NCBI GenBank assembly: GCA_017458025.1
Contig: JAFTGG010000112.1
Span: 1-15,980, forward strand
Length of the DNA stretch: 15,980 nt
Direction: 5' to 3'
Origin: Oscillospiraceae bacterium
GTDB lineage: Bacteria; Bacillota; Clostridia; Oscillospirales; Oscillospiraceae
The translations under genes and the position numbers were made by a program. Of this stretch, positions 6,056 to 13,248 are shown piece by piece. Below the pieces are notes generated by a model. That model had not been told where the DNA came from. It searched no databases and saw only the letters and a list, made by a program, of their open reading frames with translations. The number at the start of each line of letters is the position of its first letter. The first letter of the stretch is position 1.

Positions 6056-6084
6056 TTGATTTCCTGATACACATTTGCTATAAT
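6056..6084 (+). promoter_or_regulatory. Sigma-A promoter of the phosphorelay/c-di-GMP operon
   Basis: TTGATT (6056-6061), a 17-base spacer and a perfect TATAAT (6079-6084). The predicted start is about 65 bases before the kinase ATG. The bases following the -10 (TATAATACTCAAA) are identical to those at the greA promoter. Confidence 0.85.
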
Positions 6085-6155: not shown

Positions 6156-9100
6156 ATGGCAAATATCGTACTGCCCTTTGACACAACGCCGTATGACAAG
6201 CTGCCGATCAGCACGATGATCTACGAGCCGGTGTACAACGACGACGGGAGCCTCAGGGATTTCCGCCTCGTATACGGCAACAACATCTTCGCGCGCGACT
6301 GGAAGCTCATTTACCACAGCGACACCTTTGTGGGCGAATGCCTCAAGGAAAGCACGCTGATGGACGAGTATTCCCTCGGCATGCTGGAGCGCTTCCTGAC
6401 GGAGAAGCCGCACTCCTTCTCCACCTATATGCCGATGGTCAACCTCCATCTGCACTTCGAGCCGATGGCCGGCCTGCTTCCGCCGCCGTACCACGGCGTG
6501 CTGATGACTATTCTGAACGACTACGAGGAAAAGGAGTCCCGCACCCACTTCCTGCGCAACATCAGCCAGATGAAGAACAACGCCGTGCTGATGCAGAAGC
6601 ACGACGACGGGCGCCTGGAATCTGTTTATGTCTCCGAGACGTTCGCGCAGATGATGGAGTGCACGGTCGAGGAGGCCATGCGCCTGATGGACGGCATGGG
6701 CTTTTTCCACACGACGCACCCGGAGGACCGCCCGTTCGAGCGCTCCATGCTCAAGCGCCGCGTCACCGACGACGGCGGCAGCGACCTCACCATTCAGAAG
6801 ATCACGGCGAAGAAGAACCGTATCTGGTGCAACGTGCACTACGCGTTCATCGACGATTTCGGCGAGCACTATGTCTACTGCACCTACACCGACGTGACGA
6901 TGCTCAAGCAGTACGAGGAACGCCTGCGCAGCGTCTATACAAGCCTCGGCACCAACTTCTATCAGGTCGACGACCAGACGCTGGGCCTTTTCCGCGTCAA
7001 CCTCACGAAAAACATCGTCGAGGAGGTCAAGGGCCGCGATCTGTTCGCGTCGGATTCGGCGCGCCTGCCGTACGCCGAGCTGATGGCCCGCCGCGCGGAG
7101 AACTATCCCATCGTCAGCGAGCGCGAGCGCCTGCTGCGCACCTTTGACCGCGAAAGGCTCTCCGCGCTCTATCTGGAGGGCAAGGTCACGGCGACCGAGG
7201 TGCTCTACTCCCGCCGCCGCGACGGGCACGACTGCTTTGTCGAGCTGTCCGCATCTCTGACGCGCCACCCGCTGACCGGCGACATGATCGCGTTCATGAC
7301 CGAGCGCGAGTGCAACGCCGAAAAAGTGCGCGAGACGCTGATGAACAAGATCCTCGCGCAGCAGTTCGACATGGTCGCGTATCTGGTGGACGGCAACTAC
7401 GGCGTCAGCATCGGCGACGCCGCGCGCATCACGAAGGGCAGCATCTTCCCGACCACGCGCTTCGGCTCTTATCAGCAATATCTCGACAATCAGGTGAAGC
7501 CCGCGCTCCACGGCACGCAGGAGTATTGCGACGCCGCGATGGAGGCGCTGAGCCTCGACACGATCGAGGTGCAGACGCGCATCAAGGAGCCCTATGTCGC
7601 CAATATCGCCATCGAGATCGACGGCGAGGTGTTCCACAAGCGCTTCGACTTCTACCTCGTCGACCCCGAGGCGCGGTTCTACATCGTGCTCAAGAGCGAC
7701 ACCACCGAGCTCCACCGCGAGCAGGCGGCGCGCAACGAGCAGTTGCGCCTCGCGCTGGCGGACGCGCAGCAGGCGAACGTCGCCAAGACGGCGTTCCTCA
7801 GCTCGATGTCTCACGAGATCCGCACGCCGATGAACGCCATCATCGGCCTCGACAACATCGCGCTCAAGGACCCCGAGCTGCCGGCGCGCACGCGCGAGCA
7901 TCTGGAGAAGATCGGCGGCAGCGCGCGGCACCTGCTGGGGCTCATCAACGATATTCTCGACATGAGCCGCATCGAGTCCGGCCGCATGGTGCTCAAGAAC
8001 GAGGAATTTTCGTTCAGCGGCATGCTGGAGCAGATCAACACGATGATCGGCGGACAGTGCCAGGACCGCGGGCTTGCCTACGACTGCCGCATCCTCGGTA
8101 CCGTGAGCCAATATTACATCGGCGACGACATGAAGCTCAAGCAGGTGCTCATCAACATTCTCGGCAACGCGGTCAAGTTCACCCCCGCGCCCGGCACGGT
8201 GAGCTTTATCATCGAGCAGACGGCGCAGTTCGAGGACCAGTCGACGCTCCGCTTCGTCATTAAAGACACCGGCATCGGCATGGACAAGGAATATCTGCCG
8301 AAGATCTTCGAGGCGTTCACGCAGGAGGACGCGACGGCCACCAACCAATACGGCGGCAGCGGCCTCGGCATGGCGATCACGAAGAACATCGTCGAGATGA
8401 TGAACGGCAACATCTCGGTCGACTCCGAAAAGGGCGTCGGCTCGACGTTCACCGTCAACGTGACGCTGCGTTCCTCCGACCGCACGGACAGCGAGAAGCA
8501 CAGCGATATCCGCCCGCAGGACATGAACGTGCTCGTCATCGACGACGATCCCGTCGCCTGCGAGCACGCGAAGCTGGTGCTCGAGGAGATCGGCATCACC
8601 GCGGATACGGCGGGCGGCGGCGAGGAGGCGCTGGAGATGATTCGGGTGCGCCACGCGCGGCGCGAGGCGTACAACCTGATCCTCGTCGACCTCAAGATGC
8701 CGGGCATGAACGGCGTGGAGGTCGCGCGGAAGATCCGCGAGCTCTACAACGGCGAGAGCACGATCATCATTCTCACCGCCTACAATTGGTCGGACATCGA
8801 GGACGAGGCGATCCTCGCGGGCGTCGACAGCTTTATGTCGAAGCCGCTGTTCGCCTCGAACGTGCTCTATGAGTTTAAGCAGGCGATCGAGCGCAAACGC
8901 GCCAAGGAGGACGAGGCGGGCGAGAACAAGGCGGATCTGACGAACCGCCGGATTCTGCTCGCCGAGGACATGATGATCAACGCCGAGATCATGATCGAGC
9001 TGCTTGAGATGATGGACATGAAGGTCGAGCACGCCGAAAACGGCAAGATCGCGGTCGACCTGTTCTCCGGAAAGCCGGAGGGCTGGTTCGACGCGATCCT

Positions 9101-9323
9101 CATGGACATGCGCATGCCGGAGATGGACGGCCTGACCGCGACGCGGCATATCCGCGCGCTGGATCGTCCGGACGCGAAGAAGGTCCCGATCATCGCGCTG
9201 ACGGCGAACGCCTTCGACGAGGACGTGCAGCGCTCTTTGCAGGCGGGCATGAACGCGCATCTGAGCAAGCCCGTCGAACCGGAGCGGCTCTACGACACGC
9301 TGAGCGAACTGATCCGCGACTGA
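6156..9323 (+). CDS. Hybrid sensor histidine kinase with PAS-like sensors and two receiver domains
   Basis: A 1055-aa cytosolic kinase; no membrane segment is visible. The N-terminal ~525 residues hold PAS-like sensory modules, the clearest around 20-120 and 150-255, followed by two modules of the kind common in clostridial signalling proteins. HisKA contains SHEIRTPMNAIIG with phospho-acceptor His553. The ATPase domain shows the N box (from Lys660, NILGNAVKF), DTGIGM (704), IFEAF and GGSGLGM (733). Receiver 1 (from ~790) has DDD and Asp845 in LVDLKMPG; receiver 2 (from ~931) has AED and Asp984 in LMDMRMPEMDG, each with the Thr/Lys switch residues (ILTAYN/SKPL and ALTAN/SKPV). The ATG at 6156 has AAGAGG upstream. 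It leads an operon with two EAL proteins and an Hpt protein at 16-21 base gaps. The signal is unknown. Confidence 0.95.
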   Translation: MANIVLPFDTTPYDKLPISTMIYEPVYNDDGSLRDFRLVYGNNIFARDWKLIYHSDTFVGECLKESTLMDEYSLGMLERFLTEKPHSFSTYMPMVNLHLHFEPMAGLLPPPYHGVLMTILNDYEEKESRTHFLRNISQMKNNAVLMQKHDDGRLESVYVSETFAQMMECTVEEAMRLMDGMGFFHTTHPEDRPFERSMLKRRVTDDGGSDLTIQKITAKKNRIWCNVHYAFIDDFGEHYVYCTYTDVTMLKQYEERLRSVYTSLGTNFYQVDDQTLGLFRVNLTKNIVEEVKGRDLFASDSARLPYAELMARRAENYPIVSERERLLRTFDRERLSALYLEGKVTATEVLYSRRRDGHDCFVELSASLTRHPLTGDMIAFMTERECNAEKVRETLMNKILAQQFDMVAYLVDGNYGVSIGDAARITKGSIFPTTRFGSYQQYLDNQVKPALHGTQEYCDAAMEALSLDTIEVQTRIKEPYVANIAIEIDGEVFHKRFDFYLVDPEARFYIVLKSDTTELHREQAARNEQLRLALADAQQANVAKTAFLSSMSHEIRTPMNAIIGLDNIALKDPELPARTREHLEKIGGSARHLLGLINDILDMSRIESGRMVLKNEEFSFSGMLEQINTMIGGQCQDRGLAYDCRILGTVSQYYIGDDMKLKQVLINILGNAVKFTPAPGTVSFIIEQTAQFEDQSTLRFVIKDTGIGMDKEYLPKIFEAFTQEDATATNQYGGSGLGMAITKNIVEMMNGNISVDSEKGVGSTFTVNVTLRSSDRTDSEKHSDIRPQDMNVLVIDDDPVACEHAKLVLEEIGITADTAGGGEEALEMIRVRHARREAYNLILVDLKMPGMNGVEVARKIRELYNGESTIIILTAYNWSDIEDEAILAGVDSFMSKPLFASNVLYEFKQAIERKRAKEDEAGENKADLTNRRILLAEDMMINAEIMIELLEMMDMKVEHAENGKIAVDLFSGKPEGWFDAILMDMRMPEMDGLTATRHIRALDRPDAKKVPIIALTANAFDEDVQRSLQAGMNAHLSKPVEPERLYDTLSELIRD

Positions 9324-9339
9324 CGAATGGAGGAACGAC

Positions 9340-11013
9340 ATGGATAAAAACAATATTCAAATGGACCCGCTGCAAAAGCAGATGCTCGACGACGTGTTCG
9401 ACGCGTTCCAGATGCTCGCCCCCGGCAGCATCGTCTCCCTGATGCATGTGGAGGGCGGCTTTACGCGCTACTCCCCCGCCGGAGTGGAGCTGCTCGGCCT
9501 GCCGGGGGAGTATATCCCCAACGGCGCGATGGACTGGAACGATTATCTCCACCCCGAGGACCGCAAGCGCTATATGGACGTGATGACGCCGCTGGCGCTG
9601 GGCGAGACCTTCAGCTACGACATCACTTATCGCGTACGGCTCAAGAGCGGGGAATACTGCAACTTCCGCGCCGTGGGCGCGACGCTGCGCAACGCCGAGG
9701 GCAAGCCGAGTCTCATCGGCGGCGCCCTGATCAACCAGGGCGTGACGGAGAACACCGACCCGATCACGGTGCTGCCCAATAAGTACGCGTTTTACGAGGC
9801 GCTGGGCGGACTGATGGAGCAGGAGCGGCCGGCGGTCGCGCTGCTGTGCGGCGTGAACAAGCTCTCGCGCATCAATCAGGATCACGGCTACAGCTACGGC
9901 AACCGCGTGCTGCAGGAAATGGCATGGCTCATTCAGGAGACGCTGGGCGAGCGCGGCAAGGTCTACCGCACGGACGACGCGACCTTCGCGGTCGTATCGG
10001 AGACGCTTTCCCGCGAGGAGCTCGCCGCGATCTACGACTCGATCAAGCTCAAGCTCCAGCGCGGCATTCGCGTGGAGGGCAACCGCCACAACCTGATGGC
10101 GAACGGCGGCATGATCTCCGTCGCCGGCGTACGTATGGACCCCGCGACGATCTACTCCTGCCTCGGCTACGCCTACCGCGAGTCCAAGCGGCACCGCCAC
10201 GGCGAGCTGGTGGATTTCAACGGCGGCGTCAAATACGACGTGAACGAGTCGCTGGAGATGGTCAACGTCATTCGCGATTGCATCGTGGACGGCTGCAGGG
10301 GCTTTCTGCTGGACTATCAGCCGGTGGTGGACACCACGACCGGCCGGATCCTCGGCGCGGAGGCGCTGGTGCGCTGGGAGGGCGAGCCCTACGGCGAGGT
10401 GGAGCCGATGGAGTTTCTGCCCATTCTCGAAAACGATTTTGTGTTCGAGGAGCTGGGCGCATGGATCCTCCGCACGGCGATGCGGGACGGCCTGAAGTTC
10501 GTTGAGAAGGCGCCGAATTTCCTGCTGGGGGTCAACATTTCCGCCTCGCAGATCGAGGACGAGTATTTTATTGACAGCCTGTCGGAAATCATGCGCGAAA
10601 CGGGCTTCCCCGCGGGGAACCTCAGCCTTGAGATCACCAAGGGCTGCCGCCTGCTGGATTTCGACCGGCTGCAGCAGGTCGTGACGCAGCTACACAAGCT
10701 CGGCGTCCGCGTCGGCATCGACGACTTCGGCACGGGCTTCGAGTCCATCGGCTTTTTGAAGCGCTTCGCCGCGGACTACATCAAGTTCGACCGCGAGCTT
10801 ATCGCGGACATCGAGCAGGACAACGCCGACCGCCAAACGATGCTGCATCTCGCCGAATGTGCGGCGGCGCGCGGGACGCACGTCATCGCCAAGGGCGTAG
10901 AAACGGCGGGCATGCGCGACATTTTGAAAGACTGCCGGATCGGCAGCGCGCAGGGCAACCTGTATGCGGAGCCCCTCGCCTTTGACGCGGTCATGACGGA
11001 GTTTTTTGCGTAA
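9340..11013 (+). CDS. PAS / degenerate GGDEF / EAL protein, c-di-GMP related
   Basis: A 557-aa soluble protein. Residues ~20-135 form a PAS fold (GFTRYSPAGVELLGLPGEYI ... DWNDYLHPEDRKRY). Residues ~140-300 are GGDEF-like (DPITVLPNKYAFYEAL), but the active-site loop reads DDATF at 212-216, so cyclase activity is unlikely. The EAL domain (~315-557) keeps Glu341 (EALVRW), Asn399 (VNISA), Glu431, Asp461-Asp462 (DDFGTGFES), Lys482 (IKFD) and Gln538. Two positions differ from active enzymes: the usual LEITES reads LEITKG, and AEGVET reads AKGVET (Lys518 for the first Glu of EGVE). Phosphodiesterase activity is therefore in doubt; it may bind c-di-GMP as a sensor or work weakly. GGAGG lies 6 bases before the ATG. 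Second gene of the phosphorelay operon. Confidence 0.92.
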   Translation: MDKNNIQMDPLQKQMLDDVFDAFQMLAPGSIVSLMHVEGGFTRYSPAGVELLGLPGEYIPNGAMDWNDYLHPEDRKRYMDVMTPLALGETFSYDITYRVRLKSGEYCNFRAVGATLRNAEGKPSLIGGALINQGVTENTDPITVLPNKYAFYEALGGLMEQERPAVALLCGVNKLSRINQDHGYSYGNRVLQEMAWLIQETLGERGKVYRTDDATFAVVSETLSREELAAIYDSIKLKLQRGIRVEGNRHNLMANGGMISVAGVRMDPATIYSCLGYAYRESKRHRHGELVDFNGGVKYDVNESLEMVNVIRDCIVDGCRGFLLDYQPVVDTTTGRILGAEALVRWEGEPYGEVEPMEFLPILENDFVFEELGAWILRTAMRDGLKFVEKAPNFLLGVNISASQIEDEYFIDSLSEIMRETGFPAGNLSLEITKGCRLLDFDRLQQVVTQLHKLGVRVGIDDFGTGFESIGFLKRFAADYIKFDRELIADIEQDNADRQTMLHLAECAAARGTHVIAKGVETAGMRDILKDCRIGSAQGNLYAEPLAFDAVMTEFFA

Positions 11014-11034
11014 CACGGAACGGAGAGTAGCATC

Positions 11035-12717
11035 ATGGCAAACGAAAAAGAGATCACTCAGCGCAAGCGCACCGTCCTCGTGGTCGAAGACAATGACATG
11101 AACCGCGAGATCCTCTGCGAGCTGCTTGCGGACGACTACGACGTGCTCGAAGCGGAGAACGGCAACGTCGGCCTCGAAGCGCTCGACAAGCACAGCGGCG
11201 AGATCGCGCTCGTCATGCTCGACGTGTATATGCCCGAGTGCGACGGCTTTGAATTTCTCGAACGCAAGCGGAAGGACCCGCGCTTTGACACGATACCGGT
11301 CATTATGATGACCGCGAGCAACACGGCCGACGACGAGATCCACTGTCTGGAGCTCGGCGCGAGCGACTTCATCACGAAGCCCTACAACGTCGAGATCATG
11401 AAAAACCGTATGAAGAGCGTGATCCGCCTGCGTGAATCCTCCTCGATGCTGGGCCGTCTGGAATCGGACAGCCTGACGGGGCTTTACAGCAAGGAGTTCT
11501 TCTACCACACGGCCGAGGAGCTGCTGCGCGCCAATCCCGACGAGCATTACGACGTCGTCTGCTCCGACGTGGAGAATTTCCGCGCGCTGAACGACCGCTA
11601 CGGCACCGCGCAGTGCGACAGCTTCCTCCGCGCCATCGCCGAGGACCTGACCGAGCGCATCCCCGGCTTACTGTTCGGCGGGCGCATCGGCGCGGACGTG
11701 TTCGCGTTCCTGCTGCGCCATCACGAGGATAGCTGGGCCGGCATCCTGACGCCGGAGGGCGACGAGACGCGCTACGGCAAATTTGTCGTCAAGTACGGCA
11801 TCTTCGCAGACGTGGATCACGCGCTGCCCGCCGCCGCGCTCTGCGACCGCGCGACGCTGGCGATCAAGAAGATCAAAAAGAAATTCGGCGCGCGCGTCGC
11901 CTTCTACGACGACGAGATGCGCGATATGCAGTTGCGCGAGCGGCAGATCGAGGAGAACATGGAGACCGCGCTCGCGGAAGGGCAGTTCGTCGTCTACTAC
12001 CAGCCCAAGCACGACCTGCACACCGACACGACCGGCGGCGCGGAGGCGCTCGTGCGCTGGATTAGCCCCGAGCTGGGCTTCGTCAGCCCCGGGCAGTTTA
12101 TTCCGCTGTTCGAGCGCAACGGCTTTATCACCAACCTCGACTTCTTCATCTGGGAGGAGGTCTGCAAGGAGATCCAGCACTGCGTCTGGGAGGGCCTGCC
12201 CGTCGTGCCGGTGTCGATCAACGCGTCCCGCATGGACTTCGAGGTGCCGAACCTCGCCGGCGAGATCGCGGCGCTCGCGGACAAGTACGGCGTCGACCAC
12301 TCGCTGCTCCACGTCGAGCTGACCGAGTCGATGTACACCGACAACCCGGGCCAGATCGAGCGCACGCTCAAGGAGCTGCACGACAACGGCTTCCATATCG
12401 AGCTGGACGACTTCGGCTCCGGCTATTCGAGCCTGACGAGCCTCAACACCCTGACGCTCGACGTGATGAAGGTCGATATGAGCCTGATCCGTCAGGCGTC
12501 GGCGACCGGCGATTTCAGTATTCTGCGTTTCTGCTCGCTGCTCGCGGACAACCTGCGCCTCAAGACCGTCGTCGAGGGCGTGGAGACCGCGGAGCAGGTC
12601 GCGGCGCTGAAGGTGCTCGGCTGCGATTACATTCAGGGCTATTACTTCTCCAAGCCGCTGCCGGCGAAGGAGTTTGAAGAATATCTGACCGTCCACAGCG
12701 GTCAGGAGAGCGCGTAA
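11035..12717 (+). CDS. Response regulator with degenerate GGDEF and intact EAL (c-di-GMP phosphodiesterase)
   Basis: A 560-aa cytosolic protein and the probable output of the phosphorelay. The receiver domain (~12-130) has VVEDND, phospho-acceptor Asp63 in MLDVYMPE, MMTASN and the switch Lys115 in ITKP. The GGDEF-like domain (~140-300) starts DSLTGLYSKEFF, but the catalytic loop is GADVF at 219-223. The EAL domain (~310-555) has every residue I expect for c-di-GMP hydrolysis: Glu337 (EALVRW), Asn396 (SINAS), Glu428 and Glu431 (VELTES), Asp458-Asp459 (DDFGSGYSS), Lys479 (MKVD), Glu514 (EGVET) and Gln534 (IQGYYFSKP). GGAGAG lies 7 bases before the ATG. The receiver should take phosphate from the kinase directly or through the Hpt protein encoded next, which would switch the EAL domain. 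Confidence 0.95.
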   Translation: MANEKEITQRKRTVLVVEDNDMNREILCELLADDYDVLEAENGNVGLEALDKHSGEIALVMLDVYMPECDGFEFLERKRKDPRFDTIPVIMMTASNTADDEIHCLELGASDFITKPYNVEIMKNRMKSVIRLRESSSMLGRLESDSLTGLYSKEFFYHTAEELLRANPDEHYDVVCSDVENFRALNDRYGTAQCDSFLRAIAEDLTERIPGLLFGGRIGADVFAFLLRHHEDSWAGILTPEGDETRYGKFVVKYGIFADVDHALPAAALCDRATLAIKKIKKKFGARVAFYDDEMRDMQLRERQIEENMETALAEGQFVVYYQPKHDLHTDTTGGAEALVRWISPELGFVSPGQFIPLFERNGFITNLDFFIWEEVCKEIQHCVWEGLPVVPVSINASRMDFEVPNLAGEIAALADKYGVDHSLLHVELTESMYTDNPGQIERTLKELHDNGFHIELDDFGSGYSSLTSLNTLTLDVMKVDMSLIRQASATGDFSILRFCSLLADNLRLKTVVEGVETAEQVAALKVLGCDYIQGYYFSKPLPAKEFEEYLTVHSGQESA

Positions 12718-12735
12718 ACGCGGGGAGGAGCCATT

Positions 12736-13107
12736 ATGACAGTTCAAGAGTTATACGACAGCATCGGCGGGAACTACGACAGCGCCAAGCGCATTTTGCA
12801 GATGGATAAGCTGATCGGCAAATTCGTCCTCAAGTTCCTCGACGACAAGTCCTGCGAAAAGCTGCTGAGCGCGTGGGAGGCAAAGGACGGCTCCGGCGTC
12901 TTTGACGGCGCCCACGCCATCAAGGGCGTCTGCGCCAATCTGGGGCTCAACGGGCTTTCGGAGCAGGCGAGCGCCATCGCCGAGGAGTTCCGCCCAGGCA
13001 ACGCGCGCACGATGGACGACGCCGAGGTCGACCGCCTTGTCGCGGAGCTGAAGGCAACCTACGACAAGACCATCGCGGGCATCAGCGCTTTCGCCGCGGA
13101 GCAGTAA
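12736..13107 (+). CDS. Stand-alone Hpt (histidine phosphotransfer) protein
   Basis: A 123-aa helical protein. AHAIKGVCANLGL at about 59-71 is the Hpt signature, with His60 as phospho-acceptor and the conserved Lys-Gly three residues on. The rest is amphipathic helix, as in the four-helix bundle of the family. It closes the operon, 18 bases behind the REC-EAL gene, with GGAGG before the ATG, and is followed by a terminator. It would carry phosphate between a receiver domain of the hybrid kinase and the receiver of the EAL regulator. No kinase domain is fused to it. Confidence 0.92.
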   Translation: MTVQELYDSIGGNYDSAKRILQMDKLIGKFVLKFLDDKSCEKLLSAWEAKDGSGVFDGAHAIKGVCANLGLNGLSEQASAIAEEFRPGNARTMDDAEVDRLVAELKATYDKTIAGISAFAAEQ

Positions 13108-13165
13108 TACGAAACACTGTTAAAAGCATGAGGCGCCGCGGCCGCCCGCCTTCTTTATCAGCAAG

Positions 13166-13205
13166 ACCCTCCTTTGCGCGCGACGGCGCGAAGGAGGGTT
13201 TGTCG
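13166..13205 (+). terminator. Terminator of the phosphorelay operon
   Basis: ACCCTCCTT (13166-13174) pairs with AAGGAGGGT (13191-13199), extended inward by a GC-rich stem with one G-T pair; TTTGTC follows. It lies about 60 bases beyond the Hpt stop and 15 bases before the greA promoter. Confidence 0.75.
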
Positions 13206-13219
13206 CGCGGCTTCACCCC

Positions 13220-13248
13220 TTGACAACCTCGCCGCGGATACATATAAT
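13220..13248 (+). promoter_or_regulatory. Consensus sigma-A promoter of greA-lysS
   Basis: TTGACA (13220-13225), exactly 17 bases, TATAAT (13243-13248): both boxes match the consensus fully. The predicted start is about 46 bases before the greA ATG. Strong, constitutive expression is expected. Confidence 0.95.

Follow-up and report, generated by a model that had tools for sequence, protein, structure and literature searches.

Among the known systems closest to the one described here are Roc and Pvr of Pseudomonas aeruginosa. Excerpts of the original reports describe a two-hybrid interaction of HptA with RocR3 for Roc (PMC12051241), and PvrR as a phosphodiesterase that is required for dispersal and comes from a four-gene two-component set (PMC3842833). 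Here we analysed a four-gene operon (g1 to g4 in gene order) in a 15,980-nt stretch of contig JAFTGG010000112.1 from an Oscillospiraceae bacterium; the whole stretch is called the window, and genomes and loci carry G and L numbers, respectively. The operon probably encodes a cytosolic multistep phosphorelay with hydrolysis of cyclic diguanosine monophosphate (c-di-GMP) as its output and with g2 as an inactive regulatory partner of the kinase. What sets it apart most is the dead yet conserved enzyme encoded between its outer genes.

The four genes lie on one strand and are separated by 16, 21 and 18 bases (Table 1), as an earlier note on this DNA had described; there are purine-rich stretches, ggaggaac and ggagag, ahead of the start codons of g2 and g3. 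Judging from this spacing, a single mRNA is likely to carry all four. Domain assignment with Pfam (E up to 0.01) placed HisKA, HATPase_c and two Response_reg domains in g1, which thereby combines a kinase module containing the phospho-acceptor His with two Asp-bearing receivers (REC). The Hpt protein g4 carries the His of the HxxKG motif (HAIKG at position 60), and g3 is an output regulator with a receiver Asp of its own (D63, accompanied by T93 and K115). All five relay residues, namely His553, Asp845 and Asp984 of g1, His60 of g4 and Asp63 of g3, are found exactly where they had been claimed. The first 520 residues of g1 appear to form about four PAS-like domains, as read from the secondary structure of a model; the VIA-align comparison of g1 covers mainly residues 126-261.

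In the residue tables, the EAL domain of g3 is canonical at nine of nine positions, most of which are on the RocR list as excerpted from PMC7911125. The GGDEF domain matched at residues 144-233 of g3 has the motif GADVF and that of g2 has DDATF, so that no intact GGDEF is present in the operon; Pfam found no DNA-binding domain among the four proteins. These results support the earlier account of a gene row that contains every part of a relay, ends in an EAL output (here intact) and lacks both a DNA-binding output and a working GGDEF domain. The assembly to which the window belongs (2.0 Mb) is 89% complete, about one tenth of the genome being missing. It contains EAL family matches in six places: g2, g3, a REC-GGDEF-EAL protein on contig C173 in which the DD pair is DN, and three further proteins (C180, C192 and C29) whose matches are confined to the latter half of the EAL profile. 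The sole EAL domain with all nine canonical residues found in this assembly is that of g3. GGDEF matches occur in five places, with the motif intact in two (C175 and C179), and there was no match to HD-GYP (PF13487) in the same 89%-complete assembly. Across a same-genus sample of 18 genomes (G000-G017, the window's included), the number of matches to g2, that is, of GGDEF/EAL type, ranges from 0 to 23, with 23 in G006 and G014 and 5 in the window's genome; the c-di-GMP network is very uneven within this genus.

We propose that the g1 kinase is controlled by its tandem-PAS sensor and that phosphate would pass from His553 to the Asp of one g1 receiver, REC2 with Asp984 being the likeliest, then to His60 of the Hpt protein and finally to Asp63 of g3. 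The g3 receiver would switch the EAL phosphodiesterase to which it belongs, so that c-di-GMP falls or is spared. The PAS-bearing pseudo-phosphodiesterase g2 would tune either the kinase or the output protein by binding to it, and may signal c-di-GMP or a PAS ligand to the kinase.

Table 1. Coordinates of the operon, its key residues and other features; positions refer to the window unless a locus is named.
Feature	Coordinates	Strand	Description
Promoter-like site	6056-6084	+	TTGATT-17-TATAAT with TG extension; consensus scan, 10/12 bases; 71 bases to g1 ATG
g1	6156-9323	+	Hybrid histidine kinase (1055 aa), predicted soluble; PAS-like tandem sensor at ~1-520, then HisKA, HATPase, REC1, REC2
His553 of g1	7812-7814	+	Kinase phospho-acceptor; His in 119/120 aligned homologues, 1 gap
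Asp845 of g1	8688-8690	+	REC1; Asp in 109/120 aligned homologues, 11 gaps
Asp984 of g1	9105-9107	+	REC2; Asp in 113/120 aligned homologues, 6 gaps, 1 Gln
g2	9340-11013	+	PAS, degenerate GGDEF, degenerate EAL; 557 aa; Pfam, residue tables, AlphaFold2 model
Lys518 of g2	10891-10893	+	At first Glu of EGVE
g3	11035-12717	+	REC, degenerate GGDEF, EAL; 560 aa; Pfam, residue tables
Asp63 of g3	11221-11223	+	Receiver Asp
g4	12736-13107	+	Stand-alone Hpt, 123 aa; Pfam Hpt E 1.4e-8
His60 of g4	12913-12915	+	Hpt phospho-acceptor candidate
Possible terminator hairpin	13164-13201	+	16 pairs; folding energy -31 to -32 kcal/mol (z-score -4.3); weak T-run
Sigma-70 consensus	13220-13248	+	TTGACA-17-TATAAT, perfect; ahead of greA-lysS
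Left-end frames	275-598, 580-1326, 1491-1904	-, -, +	NikA/MobC-like mobilisation protein, RepA_N replication protein
Fusion protein, L113	5485-8328	+	~950 aa; same-genus genome; degenerate GGDEF, EAL with Lys for Glu
Fusion protein, L114	4749-7610	+	~950 aa; same-genus genome; degenerate GGDEF, EAL with Lys for Glu
Permease-kinase fusion, L041	3477-7247		Amino-acid permease fused to hybrid histidine kinase, two receivers
Second degenerate lineage, L145	8241-9896		PAS-GGDEF-EAL
Second degenerate lineage, L146	8347-10011		PAS-GGDEF-EAL
Second degenerate lineage, L147	8722-10377		PAS-GGDEF-EAL
Second degenerate lineage, L148	8653-10317		PAS-GGDEF-EAL
Second degenerate lineage, L149	8800-10467		PAS-GGDEF-EAL

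Pfam assigns PAS_3, GGDEF and EAL domains to g2, a composition that the earlier note had not spelled out. The last Glu of the ELTE motif is replaced by Lys, and so is the first Glu of EGVE (Lys518), at the position that we take to be that of E352 in RocR. Residue E352 is a metal ligand according to the excerpted text of PMC7911125. The search for the family yielded 6710 homologues (E up to 0.001) among 8000 scored candidates, and the best 120 were aligned. Taxon labels such as Lachnospiraceae, Ruminococcus and Selenomonadaceae, attached to several database homologues that derive from metagenome-assembled genomes, were given no weight. The EGVE position is occupied by Lys in 110 of them, by Arg in 4 and by other residues in 5, with one gap and not a single Glu; a function of g2 as a second working phosphodiesterase was rejected for this reason. 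At the catalytic position of GGDEF, 100 homologues have Ala, 13 Ser, 4 Pro, 2 Gly and one Val; none of the 120 has Asp or Glu. Judged by these residues, g2 is a double pseudoenzyme that is conserved as such. An AlphaFold2 model built from 25 sequences (predicted local distance difference test score 86.3) matches the GGDEF-EAL structures of PA0575, DosP, PA0861 and MorA, and the fold therefore looks intact: g2 combines an EAL fold with the loss of catalytic residues that is typical of degenerate-EAL receptors. Degeneration of both catalytic domains is also what a dead remnant on its way to being lost would display. We consider such a remnant very improbable, because the frame is open, the homologues (at least 120) form a coherent family with a near-fixed Glu-to-Lys change, and the ratio of nonsynonymous to synonymous substitution rates (dN/dS) between the window and two relatives is 0.21-0.24 for g2, the values for g1, g3 and g4 being 0.13-0.20.

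In the window protein, the pocket of the inactive EAL domain retains eight of the nine residues. Such a pocket may bind c-di-GMP and make g2 a LapD/FimX-like receptor that feeds back on the kinase, a real possibility though not the one we favour. Eight residues are likewise kept by 61 of the 120 homologues (six or seven by 9); degenerate EAL domains can be receptors, as stated in excerpts of PMC7288161 and PMC5052742, and the hybrid kinase SgmT has a built-in degenerate GGDEF receptor (excerpts of PMC3509222). However, 50 of the 120 homologues keep five or fewer of the nine residues, which argues against c-di-GMP sensing as the common function of the family. Moreover, no RxxD-type inhibitory site was seen by eye ahead of the GGDEF motif of g2, and the SgmT report, as excerpted, finds autophosphorylation and phosphotransfer unchanged by c-di-GMP in vitro (PMC3509222).

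Ties to kinase modules are apparent in the wider g2 family. A maximum-likelihood tree of 36 rows contains a 100/100 branch that sets 18 g2-family rows and two kinase-like fusions apart from 14 canonical and two otherwise degenerate relatives. The two fusions, in G014 and G003, have a PAS domain and a kinase-like module ahead of the same PAS-GGDEF-EAL arrangement (Table 1). Within these modules the His is replaced, by Ser in one and Asn in the other, and the F and G2 boxes are lost; the proteins look dead in all three catalytic modules. Together with the adjacency of g1 and g2, the fusions tie the kin of g2 to kinase modules in both ways. Proteins of the g2 type thus resemble enzymes whose catalytic residues have apparently been lost, and their role is probably regulatory. 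It is more speculative, and in our estimate rather unlikely, that g2 stands for a large family of Glu-to-Lys (EGVE) pseudo-phosphodiesterases that would act as regulatory subunits of hybrid kinases; they would read c-di-GMP or a PAS ligand and set the kinase, and in the resulting feedback loop the dead enzyme would govern its live neighbour by way of the phosphorelay. A second, separately degenerate PAS-GGDEF-EAL lineage was seen in another family; its second Asp, Lys, EGVE Glu and Gln are non-canonical, and a GGDEF-matching gene adjoins it in four of five loci (L145-L148).

We analysed the conservation of the gene order in the same-genus sample. Orthologues of g3 (at least 70% identity) are present in 9 of the 18 genomes and have an adjacent Hpt gene in all nine. 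The four genes occur together in three (the window's genome, G002 and G004). In the synteny check that the earlier note had suggested, the order thus extends beyond this strain, and a unit unique to this assembly was rejected. Protein identities to the two four-gene relatives are 82-86% for g1, g3 and the Hpt protein and 79-80% for g2; a scan of genome contigs gave three loci, namely the two close relatives and one distant protein. None of seven queries taken from window neighbours (psuG, greA, lysS and others) was found in 17.7 kb around the operon of G002 and G004, which shows that the operon has moved between genomic places.

The remaining loci separate the operon into two pairs. In G006 (L035), an unrelated hybrid kinase lies upstream of the REC-EAL and Hpt genes, and no homologue of g1 or g2 was found in the 6-8 kb fetched upstream of the corresponding genes in G009, G007, G013 and G014 (L036, L037, L038 and L039); the contig of G003 starts inside g3. 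Conversely, g1 and g2 are adjacent in G539 (L160), which belongs to a different genus of the family; the next gene is a metallophosphatase-like open reading frame on the other strand (named from the frame itself), and g3-like matches elsewhere in that genome reach 37-39% identity only. Linkage of g1 and g2 was further assessed with those 60 of the 120 listed g2 homologues that lie on contigs of at least 5400 bases. A g1 homologue with exactly the same longest-contig size exists for 22 of the 60, the window's pair included, versus three of 60 in a control with sizes off by 1-10, which indicates linkage beyond the sampled genomes. As the pairs occur apart, the operon seems to have arisen by joining two units, one of kinase and pseudoenzyme and the other of REC-EAL and Hpt. 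The description of the relay as self-contained and dedicated was for the same reason too strong.

These contexts also bear on the role of the Hpt protein. It could act mainly as a phosphate drain or branch point that links g3 to several kinases, with g1 being just the locally encoded one. The REC-EAL and Hpt pairs with an unrelated kinase, or without g1 and g2 homologues upstream, would fit this arrangement, as would a locus with an Hpt homologue between two hybrid kinases and no g3 on its 11.7-kb contig (L041). We nevertheless find it doubtful, as the window and its two relatives pack all four genes in one direction, and we retain the linear relay from g1 through g4 to g3. A g4 Hpt homologue is present in 21 of 60 relatives (E up to 0.001). 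At the level of the class, Hpt domains were found in 87 of 147 genomes, most of the matches listed being in long frames; short Hpt frames (154 aa or less) occur in at least 18 of the 147, the one in G068 near a contig end. The notion that a separate Hpt is uncommon in clostridia is therefore fair in that stand-alone Hpt proteins are a minority, but they are not rare. At L041, the permease-kinase fusion (Table 1) directly follows the g4-like Hpt gene and another hybrid kinase gene; we read it as a transporter-coupled kinase.

Related arrangements are found beyond the genus. G028 (L054) encodes a REC-GGDEF-EAL protein with canonical EAL residues, an Hpt protein and a hybrid kinase in that order; in G058 (L048), an Hpt protein and a canonical REC-GGDEF-EAL protein have two hybrid kinases as neighbours, and in G039 (L049) the Hpt gene follows that of a canonical REC-GGDEF-EAL protein. 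These neighbourhoods suggest that the relay type is recurrent and that g2 is the special addition. Close g2 orthologues occur in 4 of 400 family, 2 of 394 order and 1 of 391 class genomes, the window's own counted, and a widespread four-gene cassette was rejected on these numbers. Family genomes with a g2 match of E 1e-150 or better number 6 of 400, consisting of the four close orthologues and two canonical paralogues (G006 and G790); at E 1e-100 or better, 17 of 391 class genomes have a match, and the alignment columns show the Lys in the window's own only. Searches of the open-licence PMC literature brought up nothing relevant to a clostridial or gut relay of hybrid histidine kinase, Hpt and EAL proteins or a g2-like pseudoenzyme.

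Several of these observations weigh against a relay in which g2 is the regulatory partner of the kinase. The complete row is limited to 3 of 18 same-genus genomes and close g2 orthologues are scarce at each rank. No g3 or Hpt gene accompanies the kinase and g2 on the 11-kb L160 contig, and g2, g3 and Hpt are absent from the short stretches around the partial g1 relatives L100, L116 and L117, from which it follows that g1 can have other partners. The EAL residues have decayed in the 50 homologues mentioned above, and the mean majority share in the g2 alignment is 0.74 for PAS, 0.67 for GGDEF and 0.61 for EAL; with PAS as the best-conserved part, a PAS-only role fits equally well. The fusions, finally, are set on a branch as long as 1.64 and one of them is unusually composed, which leaves some doubt about where exactly they belong in the tree. 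We still hold the phosphorelay with g2 as inactive partner to be probable. If it is right, an uncultured gut/rumen lineage with a small c-di-GMP network gains a defined switch on c-di-GMP breakdown. It would also define a pseudoenzyme family that can be tested and that is linked to histidine kinases through both adjacency and fusion, and the function of dead GGDEF-EAL proteins could be addressed in a clean case.

The boundaries of the operon are consistent in part with the single promoter and single terminator that had been proposed. A promoter-like site precedes g1 (Table 1); the call is a consensus match only, 12 such sites being present in the window where 4.4 are expected. The hairpin downstream of g4 is strong but is followed by only a short, broken T-run, and it is absent from the terminator scan output, so that one terminator is plausible at most. 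A perfect sigma-70 consensus follows ahead of greA-lysS. Rfam at gathering thresholds gave no match anywhere in the window. At the left end, an open reading frame near the mobilisation and replication genes (Table 1) matches glycosyl hydrolase family 18 at the C-terminal end alone (profile positions 213-314 of 317); this region has the appearance of a mobile element next to a truncated gene.

In proteins of the RocR/PvrR type, the receiver is fused straight to EAL, with no GGDEF domain. The g3 protein shares the receiver and the full set of metal and catalytic EAL residues, and differs in the degenerate GGDEF domain that lies between the two. At the level of the system, Roc (RocS4/HptA/RocR3) and Pvr (PvrS/RcsC/PvrR) resemble the operon in joining hybrid-type kinases to an EAL phosphodiesterase, in Roc with an Hpt protein, as far as the excerpted reports describe them. 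Unlike the operon, both networks include transcription regulators (RocA1 and RcsB), and a pseudo-phosphodiesterase partner goes unmentioned in the excerpts of PMC12051241 and PMC3842833. The likeness to SgmT of Myxococcus xanthus lies in the link between a hybrid histidine kinase and a domain of c-di-GMP type that lacks enzymatic activity (excerpts of PMC3509222), whereas in the operon such domains belong to a protein of their own, g2, which has no evident inhibitory site. In contrast to LapD and FimX, g2 retains the EAL motif itself and carries Lys for the EGVE Glu, and its c-di-GMP binding is putative; what it shares with them, according to the g2 model and excerpts of PMC7288161, is an EAL domain without catalytic residues in an otherwise intact fold.

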